Source: Watersipora subatra
Taxonomy: Eukaryota > Bryozoa > Gymnolaemata > Cheilostomatida > Watersiporidae
Length of the DNA stretch: 64,000 bases
NCBI RefSeq assembly: GCF_963576615.1
Contig: NC_088714.1
Location: forward strand, 1,240,001 to 1,304,000
Reading direction: 5' to 3'
Shown: piece by piece, positions 1-59,831 of the stretch
Position numbering within the stretch: the first letter of the stretch is position 1
Layout of the letters: every line of letters begins with the position of its first letter
Made by a program: the position numbers and the translations under genes
Notes under the pieces: generated by a model
What the model was told of the DNA's origin: nothing
The model's database searches: none
What the model saw: the letters and a program-made list of their open reading frames with translations, nothing else

Positions 1-244
1 TAAATTAAACTGTCTTTGAATTTTGCATTTTGAAACAGAGTTCTGCAACGTTAAAATGTTTTTATTGAAGTATGCCCCCTCCCACGCCCCCTCTCCCCAT
101 GTGTACTCTAATTCATTGTCGTAACAGAAATATCAAGTTTGGCTCTGCTATAGTGAGTGCGAGCCTGTAGGGGAAAACAGGAGTTGTGGAAACCTCTGCC
201 AAGGGAGCACAACTCTAGATAACTAAATACCACTCTGGATGTCT

Positions 245-11173: not shown

Positions 11174-12057
11174 TTAAAGGTTGACTTGCAACAAAATTCA
11201 CATTACAGTTATTTGGTATCAAAAGATTCACCATGTCTTACTCTGTTGTGTTGTAAGTGCCAAATATGTGGAAATGTGATTACAAGCTCTTAAAAGCTCA
11301 AAAACGAAAAGCCGCTGTAGATTGGAATCTCTTTATTTCGATGACGTAACCACGAAATTTGATTATCGTCTTGTCACGTATGTTCTCACGTGAATTGAAA
11401 GGCCTATAAAAAGCTCAATATAAAACTTATCGTAGTACTAGTTTATGACAAACACTTCGGGTTTTACCGAAGACCCCGTATCAAATATAGATGCTCACTA
11501 CTTTACAGTTTTGTTTCAGCATTATTCTATCGTCAAGTCGTAATCTGATCATGTGACCCAATACTTTGCAAATAATTTTTGCAGCACTTTTCGATTATCA
11601 CAGGTGACCAACAGGATCATCATGATTATCAGACAATGATATGTACTCCTTCGAGCTAAGGTTAAAAAGTTTAACGATTTTTTACGGTAAGTTATAAGAT
11701 ATCAGTGCTAAAAGTGACAGCATTAAAATGACGATAAAACAGACGCGTAAAAACAATAGACATAGTTTTATCGAATGCGTGAAGTATATTTGTGAAAATA
11801 TTTCGACGAATAAGGTTGCAAGAAAGTGTAAACAGAAACCATCTCTCACAACTACATCACATTTGAGCCGTTTTGGAAAGGGAATCCAAACTACGGCGGT
11901 CTTGTGTGGCTGCGATTTTCTGTTCGTTTTTGAGCTTTTAAGAGCTTGTAATCACCTTTCCGCATATTTTGCACCTACAACACAACAATGTAAGACATGG
12001 TGAATCTTTTCATAGCAAATAACGGTAATGTGAATTTTGTTGCAAGTCAACCTTTAA
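11174..12057. mobile_element. TTAA fold-back element, copy 1 (full length)
   Basis: TTAA at 11174-11177 and 12054-12057 flank an element starting AGGTTGACTTGCAACAAAAT and ending in its inverse. The inverted repeats run about 130-160 bp (through CTTAAAAGCTCAAAAACGAA). The interior, about 600 bp, has a short hairpin TTCGGGTTTTACCGAAG and no recognisable transposase, so it is non-autonomous. A short open frame (11728-12003) is not conserved in copy 2. Confidence 0.85.
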
Positions 12058-20900: not shown

Positions 20901-23900
20901 TAGTATATGTTATGTATCGTTATAGCTATAGTATATGTTATGTATCGTAATAGCTATAGTATATGTTATGTATCGTAATAGCTATAGTATATGTTATGTA
21001 TCGTAATATCTATAGTATATGTTATGTATCGTAATAGCTATAGTATATGTTATGTATTGTAATAGCTATAGTATATGTTATGTATCCTAATAGCTATAGT
21101 ATATGTTCGATATCTATTCAGCTATAGCATGGTATATATTTGTGGTGAGAATGACTCTTACCATATTATATAAAACTGCAAAATACACATTAAAATTAAG
21201 GATTTCTACACCGACTGCTTTGAATCTCTTTAAATACAATCACACAGACACACAAGCTAATAATAAATTCTCCTCATGGCTCTCATAGGCATTGTCTACC
21301 TTCCTTTCTAGTTCTAAATGTTTTGTTGTTATAATCTATTTGCTTTCACAAGATCAACTGTGCTTTACATAGATGAAATTATTTTCCAGCGATACGTTTT
21401 TTAGCCTATAATAATTCTTCTGTCCTTTTGCTATTTATTAGACTACTCTTCAGTCCTTTTGCTATTCATTAGACTATTCCTCAGTCCTTTTGCTATTCAT
21501 TAGACTATTCCTCAGTCCTTTTGCTATTTATTAGTCTATTCCTCAGTCCTTTTGCTATTTATATATTAGCCTATTCCTCAGTCCTTTTGCTATTTATTAG
21601 ACTACTCTTCAGTCCTTTTGCTATTTATTAGCCTATTCCTCAGTCCTTTTGCTATCCTTTAGACTATTTCTCAGTCCTTTTGCTATTTATTAGTCTATTC
21701 TTCAGTCCTTTTGCTATTTATTAGTCTATTCTTCAGTCCTTTTGGTATTTATTAGCCTATTCGTCAATCATTTCGCTATTTGTTAGCCTATTCCTCAGTC
21801 CTTTTGCTATTCATTAGAATATTCTTCAGTCCTTTTGTTAACTATTAGACTATTCTTCAGTCCTATACATGTATTTATGTTTCAATTCCCTTCTTCTGCA
21901 ATTTGCCATGCTTCATTTCATAATTTCACAATTTTCATCACTTGTAATGACATGCATACATATGGCTGCACTTTATTTTTTTCCTTGGACTCAAAAATAA
22001 GCAATGCATTATGCAGTTACATACAGTTGCAGCAATTACAAACATAGAGCTATTCTGTCTCGGTACTAACATAGTATCACCGCTTAGAAAATGGAAGGTT
22101 AATTTCTTTCGAATTCTTTCCAAGGTTTGGATCTGTCTATGGGAAACACATTTATCCAGCAGTACGTCGATAAGCCATTAATAATAGACAAGAAGAAGTT
22201 TGATATCGGAATCTATACTATTATCACTTCAATCTCTCCTCTCAGGATCTATATTATTGACCATGAGTTCCTCCTCAGGTAACTGTATCAACACTCTTTA
22301 CATTTATCATTTTAATCCCTCCTCCTCAGTCAACCGAGTGTGTAACTTTATTTGTTGGGTTTCTATGCATCGCTTATGGTCTACTAAAATGCTAGGGATT
22401 GTGTTGCAGGAGTTCTATGAAATAACTGGTTCCGGAATCCTTGTTCAGTTTACCGACGGTGAATTTCTATTGATACTGAGGCATTCAGTACAAGTGTGCT
22501 ATGCCGCTCACATAAGGAGCCCTTCTCGATTATGGATAGCCTGCACTACGTAGTTTAAGGGAAACTTTTGGTATACAAACGACCTTGAGGACAAAACGTA
22601 TCTAGATCGTATGCATAGTTTATAAGGCAATGTAATGCCTAACCAAAACTTCTTAATATCGTGAATTTGCAGATTAACACGCTGGTAGCTGTAGGATGCA
22701 CATTGTCGATTTATTAAAAAGTTCCTAAGCGCATATGATCATTCGTGAGTACGCACGCATTTCATGTGCCTTGGTAAAAGCCTACTCTCCCTTTTTGTCT
22801 AGTTCTTTCCAAAGCACCATCACTCTATAAATATTGTCTGTAAGTCTCTATTGCAGCAAAAATGATGAACAGTTTCTAAGTCTGTGTAATATTGATTTAA
22901 ATATGGGTTTTTGCCATCACCACAAATTGTTCCCTCTATAGTCAGACAACTCCTTACTAGCAAATTTATTGCTGAGAGATATACTGAATAGATTTAATAA
23001 TTGTGGTCTACCACTTTAGTTACTAAAATCAAGGACAACACTGGAGAATTACATGTTGCAAATTCATATCATGTTTTATATATTCTGACGCTATATAAAT
23101 ATATATAAATGAAAATATACATTTATATACCCTATATCTCCATTTATTTATAACTAGACCGTTGGCATAGATTAAAATAATAATAGGTTTTAACCTATTC
23201 CATCACTCTAGTTAGTTAAAACACTCCACATTTTTCAGCGCGTAGGATGCTTTTAGCGGTAGGCCATCTATATATCATATATATATTATCTCCATCTATA
23301 TATATTTTATGGTTTTATCGGTTGAAAATGAATATAATATTTTTTGCTTGCCTTACCAGTTGTATTCTATACAGATTCTACAGCATGGCAGTCTAAGCCC
23401 ATATCAATAAACGTTTTATTAGTCTTGTTTGCAGAGCCCTTCACTGACACATCCATACAGGTTGTTGTAGAAACATTAAAAATTAGCACGCACTCATCAG
23501 CTTGTTGAGTATGACGACTGACCATGGAAACATTCATAACATTCTGAGTGCATATATGTATGACAAGAATAGATGACGAGGAACCTTTCAAATATATTAC
23601 AGCTTCTAAGATTTGAGAAAAATATGTTTTAGACTAGTTTGCTTTATTATAGTAAACTGAAAGCTTGTTTGTATAATTATATTAATCATTGTTTTTGTAG
23701 ATTCTGCTATGAAGAGTATTATCCATTTGATGCGTCAAATGTTAATAAATACATAGTGGCCGATGAATACACTCCCATATGGGAGATACCTTCTCTCAAC
23801 AAGTACTATGGCAATGGCTTCTCCGCCAAATTCTCATTCAGTCAATATCTCAGAGATGAAGGTAGAGATCCTTCTGGAATATTCCAAGATATCGAAAGCA

Positions 23901-26900
23901 CGATCAGAGATGTCTATATCAGCAAACTCAGCGATATGCGAGATTCTCTCAAGAATTACCATAATAAGTATGTAAGTAAGACGGTATGGTAGTAGTATGT
24001 ATTTGAGATGGTATGATAGAAGTATGTATGTGAGACGGTGTGGTAGAAGTATGTATGTGAGACGGTGTGGTAGAAGTATGTATGTGAGACGGTATGGTAG
24101 AAGTATGTATGGAAGATGGTATGGTAGAAGTATGTATGTGAGATGGTATGGTAGAAGTATGTATGTGAGACGATATGGTCGAAGTATGTATGTGAGATGG
24201 TGTGGTAGAAGTATGTATGGAAGACGGTATGGTAGAAGTATGTATGTGAGACGGTATGGTAGAAGTATGTATGGAAGATGGTATGGTAGAAGTATGTATG
24301 TGAGACGGTATGGTAGAAGTATGTATGGAAGATGGTATGGTAGGAGTATGTATGGAAGATGGTATGGTGGTATTTCTATGATTAACTAGTTAGGAATCTG
24401 TTTTGATCTTTTGATCTGTTTAAATTTATTCCATAGTTTAACCGTAACCATTAAATCAGACGCATTCTCCAGTTGTGTCTAGTTAAGAATACTGGTTACC
24501 TGAAGTTCTGTTATTACGGGTCTTATGGAAGGTGATGTGGCAATTTAGTGCCACTGATTCTCCCGTGAGTCAGTCAAGTTACGGCATCAATCGTACACTC
24601 CAATTTGCATAGTTTTCCAACTAAACAATGTCCAAATCAGTGTTAATATTAATATTGAATCCTTGAATACTTGGTTGTTTGAAACAGACCTCATTGATTC
24701 AGGGTAATATTTATTTGAATTGAACAAGAATGCTTTGACATCTAATAGGGAAAGTTCAATAAAGCTATTTAGGATCGGGATTACAGGAACATATCAAATT
24801 ATTAAGAAACCTGTTCCCAGGTACTTTGTGCTAACAATTAGTTTTTAAGCTACAGAACCTGCAAAAGTTGACCCAGCTGCTTTGCCAAAGGGAAACTACT
24901 ATGAGAGTCAATTCATGTGATATACTTGCAATAGAATGGTAAGGTCCTTTGTAATTCTGTGACTCGGGTCAATTATGTTTTCAAACAGCACGGGCTGAAA
25001 ATTCTAACTGAAAAATTGCAGACAATAACGATGGGAACATCAGGTCTTTGACCTTGCATCAGGTGGGGGACTTCATTTGTTGGATATTATGCAATATTGA
25101 CAGGTGATTTTACTTACGTCAAATCGGTTTGTAACTATCTTAAAGGTTGACTTGCAACAAGATTCACATTACAGTTATGTGGTATCAAAAGATTCACCAT
25201 CTCTTACTCTGTTGTGTTGTAGGTGCCAAATATGTGGGAAAGTGATTACAAGCTCTTAAAAGCTCAAAAACGAAAAGCCGCCGTAGATTGGAATCTGTTT
25301 ATTTCTCTCACGTAGTCATTACAGTTTGGTTATTGTCTTGTCACGTGATGTTCTCACGTGAATTGAAAGGCCAATAAAAAGCTCAATATAAAACTTATCG
25401 TAGCACTAGTTTATGACAAACACTTCGGGTTTTACCGAAGATCCTGTATCAAATATAGATGCTCGCTACTTTACAGTTTTGTTTCGACTTGGTCTAATCG
25501 TCTAGTCGTAATCTGATCATGTGATCCAATACTTCGCAAATAATTTCTGCAGCACTTTTCGATTATTACATATGACCAGCAGGCTCATCATGATTATCAG
25601 ACAATGATATGTACTCCTTCGAGCTAAAGTTAAAAAAATTAAACGAATTTTTACAGTAAGTTATAAGATATCAGTGTTAAAAGTGACAGCATTACAATGA
25701 CAATAAAACAAACGCATAAGAACAATAGACATAGTTTTATTGAATGCGTGAAGTATATTTGTGAAAATATTTCGACGAATGAGATTGCATGAAAGTGCAA
25801 ACAGAAACCATCTTGTAACAACTACGTCCCATTTGAGCAGTTTTGGAAAGAGAATCCAAACTACAGCGGTCTCGTGTGGCTGCGATTAATTGTTCCTTTT
25901 TGAGCTTTTAAGAGCTTTTAATCACATTTCCACATATTTGGTACCTACAACACAACAGAGTAAGACATGGTGAATCTTTTGATATCAAATAACTGTAATG
26001 TGAATTTTGTTGCAAGTCAAAAATAGGCGAAGCAAGAGGGAGCCAGCAACTCAGGATACCTAAATTTTGCCCAACTCTGCAATATGGCTGGTCATACTGA
26101 GCACTATAAAATATCCTTTACGTATATTAGTCACATAAAATTGCCATAGCGACACCACAATAATCAATTACTCATCTTCTGTACTTACTCATCCATAGCA
26201 ACCTCACAATAATCAATTACTCATCTTTTCTACCTACTCATCCATAGCAACCTCACAATAATCAATTATTCATCTTCTGTACCTACTCATCCATAGCAAC
26301 CCCACAATAATCAATTACTCATCTTCTGTACTTACTCATCCATAGCAACCCCACAATAATCAATTATTCATCTTCTGTACCTACTCATCCATAGCAACCC
26401 CACAATAATCAATTATTCATCTTCTGTACCTACTCATCCATAGTAACCCCACAATAATCAATTATTCATCTTCTGTACCTACTCATCCATAGTAACCCCA
26501 CAATAATCAATTACTCATCTTCTGCACCTACTCATCCATAGCAACCCCACAATAATCAATTATTCATCTTCTGTACCTACTCATCCATAGCAACCCCACA
26601 ATAATCAATTACTCATCTTCTGACCTACTCATCCATAGCAACCCCACAATAATCAATTATTCATCTTCTGTACCTACTCATCCATAGTAACCCCACAATA
26701 ATCAATTATTCATCTTCTGTACCTACTCATCCATAGCAACCCCACAATAATCAATTATTCATCTTCTGTACCTACTCATCCATAGTAACCCCACAATAAT
26801 CAATTACTCATCTTCTGTACCTACTCATCCATAGCAACCCCACAATAATCAATTACTCATCTTTTGTACCTACTCATCCATAGCAACCCCACAATAATCA

Positions 26901-29900
26901 ATTATTCATCTTCTGTACCTACTCATCCATAGCAACCCCCAATAATCAATTATTCATCTTCTGTACCTACTCATCCATAGCAACCCCACAATAATCAATT
27001 ATTCATCCTCTGTACCTACTCATCCATAGCAACTCCACAATAATCAATTATTCATCTTCTGTACCTACTCATCCATAGCAACCCCACAATAATCAAGTAC
27101 TCATCTTCTGTACCTACTCATCCATAGCAACCCCACAATAATCAATTATTCATCTTCTGTACCTACTCATCCATAGCAACCCCACAATAATCAATTATTC
27201 ATCTTCTGTACCTACTCATCCATAGTAACCCCACAATAATCAAGTACTCATCTTCTGTACCTACTCATCCATAGCAACCCCACAATAATCAATTATTCAT
27301 CTTCTGTACCTACTCATCCATAGCAACCCCACAATAATCAATTATTCATCTTCTGTACCTACTCATCCATAGCAACCCCACAATAATCAATTATTCATCC
27401 TCTGTACCTACTCATCCATAGCAACTCCACAATAATCAATTATTCATCTTCTGTACCTACTCATCCATAGCAACCCCACAATAATCAAGTACTCATCTTC
27501 TGTACCTACTCATCCATAGCAACCCCACAATAATCAATTATTCATCTTCTGTACCTACTCATCCATAGCAACCCCACAATAATCAATTATTCATCTTCTG
27601 TACCTACTCATCCATAGTAACCCCACAATAATCAAGTACTCATCTTCTGTACCTACTCATCCATAGCAACCCCACAATAATCAATTATTCATCTTCTGTA
27701 CCTACTCATCCATAGCAACCCCACAATAATCAATTATTCATCTTCTGTACCTACTCATCCATAGTAACCTCACAATAATCAAGTACTCATCTTCTGTACC
27801 TACTCATCCATAGCAACCCCACAATAATCAATTATTCATCTTCTGTACCTACTCATCCATAGCAACCCCACAATAATCAATTATTCATCTTCTGTACCTA
27901 CTCATCCATAGTAACCCCACAATAATCAAGTACTCATCTTCTGTACCTACTCATCCATAGCAACCCCACAATAATCAATTATTCATCTTCTGTACCTACT
28001 CATCCATAGCAACCCCACAATAATCAATTACTCATCTTCTGTACCTACTCATCCATAGCAACACCGCAATAATCAATTACTCACCTTCTGTACCTACTCA
28101 TTCATAGCAACCCCACAATAATCAATGACTCATCTTCTGTACCTACTCTTGTTCTCTTCTAGAAACTTCTTTGAGATGGTACGCTTTGACTTTGTGTTGG
28201 ATGATGCTCTAGAGGTCTACTTAATGGAGGTAATCATATATCTACTCGTTACTTACTAGCAGGGCGTAGCATATTCTTGCAGGATTTTCTTATTCGAGTT
28301 AGTTCTTTCATTAACTTGACTGTGGTAAACACCTCATTTTGTTTCCTCTTCAGTACAGTCTTTTTACAGACACAAATCTTGTTTTAAAACTAAACAAACA
28401 TCAGTACATTTTGTGATTTAATTTAAGCTTCCTTATTGTTTTTATACAGCGGTGATCGTTATTGTGGGACTGCTTAAAATAAACACGCTATCTGTTACTA
28501 ATTTATAGTTTGTTAAGTATTTATTAGATTAATTATGGCACTGTGTGTAGCAATAAAAACCTAAGAATGTTTTACGCACAAATATTATTAGGTATCAACT
28601 GATATTAGCCCTTTAGCTTGGTTTTCTGTAACATAACGGTATCTGCACAAACTATATTGGCCTAATATAAAATTGATTTTGAACATGTGTACATGTACCT
28701 ACATGAAAGTAAATTAGCGGTCTTTGTGGTAGTAATTCTTTACTATTTCGTTGGCCAGCCATTATTATCAATCACAGGATATGTTACAATGGGTGCTCAA
28801 TAAATAGATTATATTAATTGAGAATATTTTTAGTGGCAAACAGATTGCCTACCAAACTTGCTTTTTAAATATGTATAGTATGTATGATCTGAGATAATAA
28901 TGATGATGAACTCTTTATTGATAAAATAAAATATGATATACTGCAATTAAACAAAAGCCTCTTTATGCAGGCAGAGATGAAATGAAATTGTGTGATCCGA
29001 CTATAGTACATATTGACCTAAATAGATGGTAATATATTATATAGCAAAAATAGATACTACTATATACAATTAAAATGGACGTGTTTATTTTGATTGTTCA
29101 TGTTTGGCAATGTTGACTGTTTGGCAAAATTTTCCATAATCAAGATTATATGGAATGATACTTTGATATACAATTGATATTTGCAGATACTGTTAACCCA
29201 AGCGTCAGACACTTGGGTTAACAGTATCTGACCCAAGCGTCAGATGGCCCTAGATGCCGAAAAGTGTTAGTGTTAGTCGAGTTAACACCTGACCAGGGCT
29301 ATAATATTATCATCTGTTGTCATGTGAACATGAAACGATGGTTGACTTGCAGGAAGTCTATTATGGAGTCTCAACTATTTTCTGTTGGCTGCGTGTGTGA
29401 TCTAGCATCTTTGTTATCCGCACATATATGGAGGTAACGGTGAGCGGATTCGTCTTCTTTTAAACAAGTTGGACTGTAACTCAATCCTGATCTGAATTGG
29501 AATAATTGGAGTCTACTTTGGCCCATTAAAAAGTCACATAGAGCTCCAAGATTTTCTCTTTCAGTGTTCAGTTTTATTGATTGAAGACATGATCTAGGGT
29601 TAGGTTTAAAAGAAGGCCGTGTTCCATCTCTGATTAGAGCTGTCCATTGTCGTTTCCATTCTTTTTATACACAATTGTTGACTTTTATTTAGAGACTTTT
29701 ATTTAGTGTAGATTAATGGTTTCAGCATATTGAATCGCTGTGTTAGACTTCTTGTGCTGGAGCAGCGCTGTTTCACAAATTAAAGTTGATGGTAATACCT
29801 AAAACTTTTGATGTGGGAGACAAATGGATAGAGTTCAAGTTAATGGTGGGGGAGAGATGGTCCCATTAAACACCACAATTTCTGTTTTCTGGTAATTAAC

Positions 29901-32900
29901 TTGTAGTTTCCATTTCGCCATCCATGTTTTTATAACTTGGCAGTTTTGCAGTTTTCCTTGTAGTTCAGAGTCATCCCTTGCAGACATCAGCACAATGCAG
30001 TCATCTGCATACTGGAGAGATGTTCCTTCAACTTCAGATAGCATGTCTCTCACATATGTAATGAATAATAAGAGAGATAAGACACTTCATTGTGGTAGCC
30101 TATATTGCAAGGCTGTGCTGGGTGGATGTAGTTCTTTACTTTGATGTTTATTTGGCTGGCTGTAAGGAGGAAGTTGGCTAAACCAAGGAAATTGCTGTGA
30201 ATTCCAAACTCTTGTAATCTGTATAGCATCCCCTGATGTGAAACTGTGTCATATGCTTTCTGGAGGCCAAAGAAAAGAGCTGCACATGTTAATCTCTTTT
30301 TCACGCTATGTGTAGCTTTGGTGAGCAGGTTGAGGAGGTATCCCTACTTTGTCTGAATCCATGTTGAGTATTTGGAATGAGAGACCAATGTTCAATTAAC
30401 GAGTGTAATCTCTGTTCCAGAGTTCTTTCGAGTGTCTTACCAACATAAGACCTGATAGTAATAGGACGATATGAACCTGTCTCTCTGTAATCACTTGCTC
30501 CTGGTTTTTGGAGAAAAATGACTAGATTACAGTTGTTCCATCCCCATTTGCGAGTTTCTATGACCTTGTTGCAGAGACAGTGTAACACTATTAGAAAAAG
30601 GTTTGTTCCTTGTGTAAGCATTTTTGGATGGATTCTATCATAGTCAAGACTTTTCCCTGACAGTTTAAGCTTATGGATAGCCTGTGTGATTTCATCCATG
30701 GAAATGATGCTATTGAGCGCACTCACATGTTCATTGTATGTAGCGTCTTGAGAGTTGGCTGGGTCAGGTAGATCATTGTAGGTTAGAGTGCCACATCCAC
30801 CAAATATAGTATGGAACAGGTGTGCTGCTTTGGATTTGTCATCCCTGAGAACTTCATCTTGTGATCCAAGAATAGCCCCAACATTGTGTTCATCTTCCTT
30901 GTTAAATGTAGATTTGAAATCCTTCCAGAAACTTTCAGAACTGTGATCATTAAGTCTGCTAGTTTTGAATTCCAGGTGTTTTTGTTGTGCACTTGATAGC
31001 TCACTTTTAAACAGTTGCTGAATTCGATCCAGCTCGTTGCCATTTCCATAAGAGGAACGTTATTTGTACTGTGATCTAACTTGTCGAAGTTGGGAAGACA
31101 GCTTGGAGAGCTCTTCATTCCAGTAGGACTTATTGTGTTTGTTTGTTTTTGCTGATGAGACATGTAACTTTTCAGTTTCAAGCAAAAAAATTTTTAGGAC
31201 TTCCCACGTGACAGTTGCATCAAACATTGTGGTGAAGTCAGTAATGTGCTGCACACACATTGTTTTTAGGGTGCGACTGAAGGAATACCAATCGGTGTTG
31301 TTCCATTTGTATACGGTCTTTTTCTCAGGCGATGGTAAGCATATATTGAGCTCTGTTATGACCGATACGTGACCCGTACGTGGGGCACCGGTAAAAAGTT
31401 CAAGTGTTATCAACATATTGATTCTTGACAAAGCGAGTGATGTCTGTAGAAGCGACAAACAAATCAATGAAGCTTGAGTTATTGTCACATAGAAATGTCG
31501 GGTTGTCATGTTTGTAGATGACCTCACGTCCCACTTTCTGTGCAAACTCAAAAAGGGTGATGAATTCTGTCCATGATCGCCCTCGAGTCTCATGGCGAGC
31601 ATTGAGATCACCAATCAAAAGGATTCCATCAACTTTAAGTGTTGCCATTTTGTCTTTCAAGTTTGCCGTAGTTTGAAGAATTTCCTCTAATTTTGTGCTT
31701 TCTTTGGGTGGTGAGTACAGTGAACAAATATAGAGTTGATGTGTGCTCACTTTTGCTATCGTGACTAGCATGTCTGCTGAATGTGGTTCAAGGTCAGGGT
31801 ATCTGGTGAGTTGTATGTTGTCTTTGGCTAATAGCGTCACCCCTCTTTGATTTGGCTTGATGATGCTTCTCATTTTTCAGAATACACCGATGGCGAGTTT
31901 ACTCAATTTTTCTTTCTGATAGACATACAATATCAATGTTTTCACTCCACACATACTGTGCCAGAGTTTTTATGGTGTTTTGGAACATACCATTGATGTT
32001 TTTTTGACATATTTTGACTGCCATTTTAAAACTCGTTATGATGTTGGGTGATCTGATTCAGGCATTTTTTGTAGTCGCTACATTTGTTGTGTTGATTGGA
32101 ACTGTGTTTGCCATTGCAATTTCTACATTTGAGGGTTTTCAGCACCGATTATGTGCGAGCCTTCATCAATGTCTTTTCCACAATGGGGGTATGCTTTTGC
32201 ACTGTCACATCGGTTTTGGGAGTGCCCGAGCGTCCAGTTGTTTGTACAGTGACTAACTTGTGGGCTCCACTCTAGTTAATATACTCTGACATATTGGCTT
32301 TGGCTTCCTAGTTTTTAGCCATCATGTATGGCTTTCTTTAGGTTCTCTGGCGTTTTGAAATAGATTTTAACAGTTCTTAGTTTTTGTTTTAGATGGCCTT
32401 TGGCCATTCTATAAAATGATGTGCCCTCAAATGATTGATCTAGGCCATTCTAGAGATTAGTGTCCTCCATGTCAATAGGTAAACCTTTGGCAACAGTGAT
32501 TGTGTTAACTTGTTTCTTAGACGGCGCTTTTGCTTTTGATGACTCAAAAAGCCCATCTTCTGGGTAATCAAGTTGCTTCTCATCTTTTTGGTAACTGAAT
32601 CAATAGCTTACTTTTGTTGTGGGGATAGTGGTTAATACTCGATTATAATTTTGCTGTCTAAGTGCTTACATATTTCTCTTCTGATCTTATCGTCAGAAGT
32701 GTTCTGCTGGTGTCTTTTATGTCTCCGGTGACCACTACTTTGTCTACCTGGAAAAATATTCTCCCTGGTTTGTTTGGTGTAGGTGGTGGGTTTTGTGTGA
32801 TTGTAGGTTGTGTCATATTTCTGCCCCTTCTCTCGTTACTTACTTGATGCCATTTATTATCCGACTCATGATTAAATTCATTTGTTGTCGAGGACGATTC

Positions 32901-39593: not shown

Positions 39594-42385
<2,792 letters not shown>

Positions 42386-59562: not shown

Positions 59563-59831
59563 AACGTTGACTTGCAACAAAATTCACATTACCGTTATTT
59601 GATATGGAAAGATTCACCATGTCTTACTATGTTGTGTTGTAGGTGCAAAATATGTGGAAAGGCGATTACTGATTCGTGATGGCTGTGGTGAACTGTTCGT
59701 TTTTAGCTTTCGAGAGCTTGTAATCACATTTCCACATATTTGGCACTTACAACACAACAGAGTAAGACATGGTGAATCTTTTGATACCAAATAAATGTAA
59801 TGTGAATTTTGTAGCAAGTCAACCTTTAATT
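59563..59831. mobile_element. TTAA fold-back element, copy 3 (interior deleted)
   Basis: Only the two long inverted repeats remain, about 125 bp each, around a short centre. The left end is TTGACTTGCAACAAAATTC and the right end is the inverse followed by CCTTTAA. It could fold into one long hairpin. Confidence 0.8.

Follow-up and report, generated by a model that had tools for sequence, protein, structure and literature searches.

Why should an intron both begin and end in tandem repeats, and what have these repeats to do with its splice sites? The question is raised by a tubulin-tyrosine-ligase-like (TTLL) gene of Watersipora subatra, found in a window of 64,000 bases (NC_088714.1, positions 1,240,001-1,304,000; all other positions are those of the window), where one intron carries an array of 27-bp units at its 5' end and an array of 49-bp units at its 3' end. 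A preliminary description of this DNA held that both splice sites had been amplified into arrays. This is borne out on the donor side, where every unit repeats the donor, but only in part at the acceptor, whose AG lies outside the 49-bp array. We propose to read the 5' array as a "mirage", meaning a minisatellite of an exon/intron border, and the 3' array as a minisatellite in its own right; we put the probability of this reading at roughly 0.7.

The intron lies on the plus strand, between an upstream exon at 23701..23967, delimited by its open frame, AG/GT borders and a match to PF03133 on the joined exons, and a downstream exon at 28163..28229, which is followed by the donor GAG/GTAATC. When these two exons and the next one are joined, they match PF03133, the TTL profile, with an E value of 5.8e-19 over residues 1-141 of 181, in one stretch that continues across the junction in the same frame. 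Matches of the joined exons to TTLL6 chains are weak (best 1.7e-5), and it is from the profile match that we take the host gene to be tubulin-tyrosine-ligase-like. Since a single PF03133 stretch crosses the junction in frame, the outermost donor, GTATGT at 23968..23973, and the outermost acceptor, the AG that ends at 28162, are supported as the real splice sites.

The donor-side array (23966..24370, plus strand) is a minisatellite-like tandem repeat of 15 units with 89% matches and the consensus AAGTATGTATGTGAGACGGTATGGTAG; Tandem Repeats Finder (TRF) places it at 23966-24368, and the units were counted to 24370. It starts 2 nt inside the exon, so that unit 1 opens with the last two exon bases (AA), followed by the real donor. 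That the real donor is unit 1 and that its motif recurs in nearly every unit had been noticed before, and the count is in fact complete: GTATGT stands in phase in 15/15 units. The units at the edges are among the most divergent, with 4 mismatches in unit 2 and 5 in unit 15, against 0-3 in units 3-14.

Splice sites were scored with a position matrix built from sites chosen in the same genome (168 donors and 166 acceptors). The real donor reaches 5.56 bits, while 12 of the 14 in-phase decoys reach 6.87 and outscore it, the remaining two standing at 4.8 and 5.0; all 14 keep the GT, and the copies thus carry the splice signal. About 15 decoy donors had been estimated; 14 lie in phase, and 13 of these 14 units contain a second site as well, GGTATG or GGTGTG, of 6.2-6.7 bits. 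By local sequence, most decoy donors at least equal the real donor, and where they equal it in strength position or context must choose between them. Use of any of the 14 in-phase decoys leads to a premature stop, because unit 1 contains an in-frame TAG.

These same features could be read as the marks of a functional array, in which extra U1-binding donors, placed downstream of a rather weak real donor, reinforce exon definition or shield the intron from premature polyadenylation, or in which poison transcripts made through the decoys tune the gene. The decoy donors of the studied array are undecayed, every decoy tested leads to a stop, and all 15 units agree in a block of 8 columns that includes most of the donor (P 0.011 under random variable columns, for a block chosen post hoc). 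We nevertheless regard such a function as very unlikely, given what is seen beside other arrays of the genome (below): decoys there are often lost or weak, and the real donors next to them are not generally weak.

The acceptor-side array (26144..28148, plus strand) amounts to 41.0 copies by TRF, with 40 units that end in CATAG, 38 of them of 49 bp and two of 48 bp, in agreement with the number first reported. The report that its last unit becomes the real acceptor is contradicted, however, as likeness to the unit ends at 28148, 14 nt before the exon, and the pyrimidine tract TTGTTCTCTTCTAG with the real AG (28149..28162; 7.2 bits) lies beyond the array. About 40 decoy acceptors had been counted, and 41 CATAG sites are indeed present (one in the first, partial unit), but all are weak, with scores of 1.7-4.7 bits that lie below even the 10th percentile of the acceptors chosen in the genome (4.85 bits). 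The CATAG sites are acceptor-like but weak, and a stop is met before the end of the exon from all 40 decoy acceptors tested. Because 14 nt separate the end of the array from the exon, and no unit spans the border, we do not file it as a mirage. At 26150-28107 the array has a higher-order pattern, in which a lag of 8 units gives the best recurrence of identical variants (12/32).

Taking into consideration that a stop codon comes with each of the 14 decoy donors and 40 decoy acceptors, the decoys could not replace the real sites, and the suggestion that the arrays act as a splice-site buffer is left without support; for the same reason, the exon-proximal sites should win. Slippage that starts from a splice site, the origin suggested at the outset, agrees with the donor array, and five further loci described below (L148, L077, L173, L093 and L203) strengthen the case for it; it is at odds with the 3' array, which lacks the acceptor.

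Two further ideas were rejected. The G-rich 5' array might pair with the C-rich 3' array in the RNA and thereby unite the splice sites, and the GC skew is indeed opposite at the two ends (+0.39 at 24001-25000, -0.75 at 27001-28000). The predicted duplex, however, has -44.9 kcal/mol, no better than that of tandem controls with shuffled units (mean -48.9; 210 of 300 as good or better), and of 12 other arrays of the window, 4 are better partners for the 5' array and 3 for the 3' array, which makes the idea hardly credible. Neither are the arrays parts of a dispersed element: in the 783.7 Mb assembly, searched with up to 3 mismatches, the 27-bp and the 49-bp unit each occur at their own locus only.

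Arrays at splice borders recur elsewhere in this genome. The survey covered 176 exon matches (TTL, 26/26 rows; myosin head, 50/75 rows; kinesin motor, 100/131 rows), from which 3 donors and 7 acceptors were dropped for want of a candidate site, leaving 173 donors and 169 acceptors. Array settings were fixed; borders were placed near the match edge by the matrix, and by frame, not by RNA, and the exon ends at the loci described below were judged by the likeness of residues to kinesin, myosin and TTLL motifs. The studied intron was left out of the counts and L027, another exon of the same gene, was included; L083, which has an array near the match edge, falls outside the limits once the matrix sets the border, and L021, with a repeat of 2.1 copies 2 nt from the match edge, is under the copy threshold. 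An array starts in [-40,+6) at 9/173 donors and ends in [-40,+25) at 8/169 acceptors. Together with a hold-out of 20 further kinesin exons of 56 planned, with criteria fixed beforehand, border arrays are found at 9/193 donors and 9/189 acceptors, so that the structure may be the most unusual one in the window, as had been claimed, but is not so in the genome.

The background rate of array edges, taken 60-1400 nt from the border in 56 loci with long flanks, is 4.5e-4 per base on the donor side and 3.9e-4 on the acceptor side, with a few arrays counted twice where long loci overlap (e.g. L024/L032 and L051/L061). Against this rate, 6 array starts are found in [-2,+6) of the 173 donors where 0.62 are expected (P 4.6e-5), and 9 in [-40,+6) where 3.56 are expected (P 0.011). 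Donor enrichment is clear, while acceptor enrichment is weak. The 176 exon matches (37,479 bases) enclose no complete array at the survey settings, and a mononucleotide-shuffled window yields none either. If the two ends are independent, arrays at both ends are expected in about 0.2% of introns, which would make the studied intron a striking example and not a unique one.

Individual loci show what these arrays contain. GT is kept in phase in at least half of the copies in 6/9 donor-border arrays. At L148, 45-bp units comprise 38 exon nt and TAG/GTAAGTG, and 3/4 copies equal the real donor (10.6 bits) in strength. The L077 unit has 16 exon nt and GTGAGTG; next to a real donor of 10.0 bits, three of its six copies have lost the GT and the other three outscore the real site. 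L173 has a single additional copy that keeps the GT (1/1), and 19 nt of exon belong to its unit. Repetition starts 2 nt before the donor at L018 (GT in 6/8 copies) and at its first base at L026 (GT in 56/61 copies), where most of the 20 decoy scores shown are 4.2 bits, against 8.6 for the real site; at L142, GT is kept in 3/4 copies, with the best decoy at 7.4 bits against 10.9 for the real donor. On the acceptor side, L093 has 52-bp units with 26 exon nt, and its exon is joined in frame to L118, the exon upstream; in L203 the 74-bp units combine a TTCTAAC stretch with TTATCAG and with 23 exon nt; the L107 unit contains the AG, that of L019 probably the AG and 14 exon nt, and that of the acceptor-side array of L092 perhaps the AG. 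Acceptor arrays at L061, L026, L035 and L138 end short of the exon, by 12, 19, 20 and 24 nt, like the studied 3' array. That units at L148, L173 and L077 (donors) and at L093 and L203 (acceptors) hold exon and splice site together, with borders placed by matrix and frame, indicates that some arrays arose across the border.

Some further features of these loci may be recorded here. The TTL exon of L026 stands between arrays of 1,480 and 1,491 bases, each near the end of the locus and hence possibly longer, and its donor-side unit has AGGTAAGT on the antisense strand. When array units were scored in sense and antisense, the medians were 4.6 and 2.6 for the 9 donor-border arrays and -0.1 and 0.4 for 74 arrays elsewhere, which is suggestive only. 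In L120 and L132, which are incomplete copies of a kinesin gene, the donor present in L115 is missing, and both diverge from L115 soon after; two candidate stretches compared as partner of the L077 exon gave matches of 15 nt or less only; dating the arrays through these kinesin copies was dropped as uninformative.

Coincidence in a repeat-rich genome has to be weighed at this point: intronic minisatellites would arise anywhere and grow until selection stops them at exons. Arrays are abundant, covering 10,681 of the window's 64,000 bases and 21,501/182,112 bases of the 56 long loci; moreover, the 3' array ends short of the exon without a copy of the acceptor's end, the acceptor enrichment is weak and 3/9 donor-border arrays have the donor in few or no copies. 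The 6 donor edges in [-2,+6) where 0.62 are expected, the units that hold exon plus splice site at five loci, unlike arrays merely abutting an exon, and the donor kept in all units of the studied array speak against such a process, and we consider it unlikely.

Other observations also weigh against a mirage at the donor and a separate minisatellite at the acceptor. The arrays at L025, L074 and L133 keep GT in 2/9, 0/5 and 0/3 copies, they make up half of the six arrays in the donor excess, and two of their donor calls score low (2.8 and 4.1 bits). At acceptors the excess is slight, with 5 array ends at 0-24 nt where 1.66 are expected (P 0.03) and 8 at -40..24 where 4.32 are expected (P 0.07). 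The hold-out gave 0/20 donors and 1/20 acceptors, which is compatible with the first rate and not a confirmation of it, and the distance limits for the first 176 exons were picked after looking at that set. A stop is present inside 58/176 profile matches, so some of these run past the exon. Exon sequence in the 27-bp unit is limited to two bases, which could be there by chance. Finally, three occurrences of AGGTAAGT within short gaps do not stand out genome-wide from a scrambled motif: there are 3,646 matches against 270 for the backward motif, and the scrambled motif gives 2,470, or 3,197 when read backwards, but these counts are uninformative because overlapping matches in long arrays drive them.

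Under the reading that we prefer, the 5' array would have been born by tandem duplication of a stretch at the exon/intron border and would have grown and been homogenised by slippage or unequal exchange. New copies would accumulate on the intron side, so that the exon-proximal donor stays beside the exon and functional; the mRNA would remain unchanged, and the array would therefore be tolerated. The 3' array would be a separate minisatellite whose growth came as far as the pyrimidine tract and AG without entering them. A bolder proposal, possible though doubtful, is that splice sites in this genome are hot spots for minisatellite birth, perhaps tied to transcription or splicing, with about one border in 20 carrying an array and an exon-proximal rule deciding among equal donors. 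Such arrays are natural test cases for how the spliceosome chooses one donor when many others match or exceed it in local strength.

Between the two arrays lies the mid-intron (24371..26143, plus strand), in which no direct repeats of at least 20 bp were found. It includes an inverted-repeat element at 25147..26020 (strand not assigned), whose two arms of 128 nt are 93% complementary and 618 nt apart; it is probably a non-autonomous DNA transposon, a name suggested by this structure. An open-frame fragment within it (25661-25885) resembles, by eye, fragments at 11682-12003 and 59614-59829. Elsewhere in the window, open frames on the minus strand at 29835-31876 resemble by eye a non-LTR retrotransposon reverse transcriptase in pieces, and at 39645-39735, on the same strand, the probable donor of a zinc-finger exon, presumably YY1-like, is followed after about 15 nt by a pyrimidine-rich repeat.

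There is reportedly a C. elegans study on minisatellites and alternative splicing. To our knowledge, the bantam and mir-2 microRNA families are specific to protostomes. The portion of PMC3772069 available to us does not state this by name. The genome has one bantam place (E 3.8e-8, on both strands), below the curated score, and none of 14 control genomes matches; mir-2 matches at two places some 300 bases apart (6.3e-5 and 7.5e-4), also below curated scores, and one of the 14 controls, a bacterium, matches. The assembly gave no COX1 match. Ten of its contigs measure 46-79 Mb, lengths that argue against the roughly 19 chromosomes of a lancelet. The weak microRNA matches suggest that the host lineage is likely a protostome one, other than lancelets.

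In lancelets, mirages are named in Adh3, the globins BflGb6 and BflGb9, troponin C and PGBD5 (PMC3087553; troponin C and PGBD5 in PMC3902484). As far as the accessible parts of these papers go, they resemble the studied array in that splice signals stand in many copies and the array edges escape homogenisation. The arrays are larger here (15 and 40 units, and about 61 at L026), the unit has only 2 exon bases, and a second array, without the AG, lies at the other end of the intron. In human segmentally duplicated genes, internal tandem repeats with minisatellite units of about 30 bp include some at exon-intron borders, as here; according to the sections seen of PMC2812944, those repeats alter exons or create introns, whereas the decoys here would add stops and the junction is apparently unchanged. 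In the open-licence literature, as partially sampled, border duplications are named for lancelets and, in a different form, for human duplicated genes, which is not proof of their absence elsewhere; the habit has so far been described mainly in lancelets. The donor array is best read as a mirage of the lancelet type, probably in a new lineage; should the animal be a protostome, mirages would not be peculiar to lancelets. Intron gain by duplication with AG/GT proto-splice sites (Rogers, as cited in the available text of PMC3087553) shares the same raw material, namely duplicated splice signals; in contrast to that process, no new intron is observed here and the array lies within an existing one. 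Border arrays of this kind would supply intron gain with duplicated splice signals.
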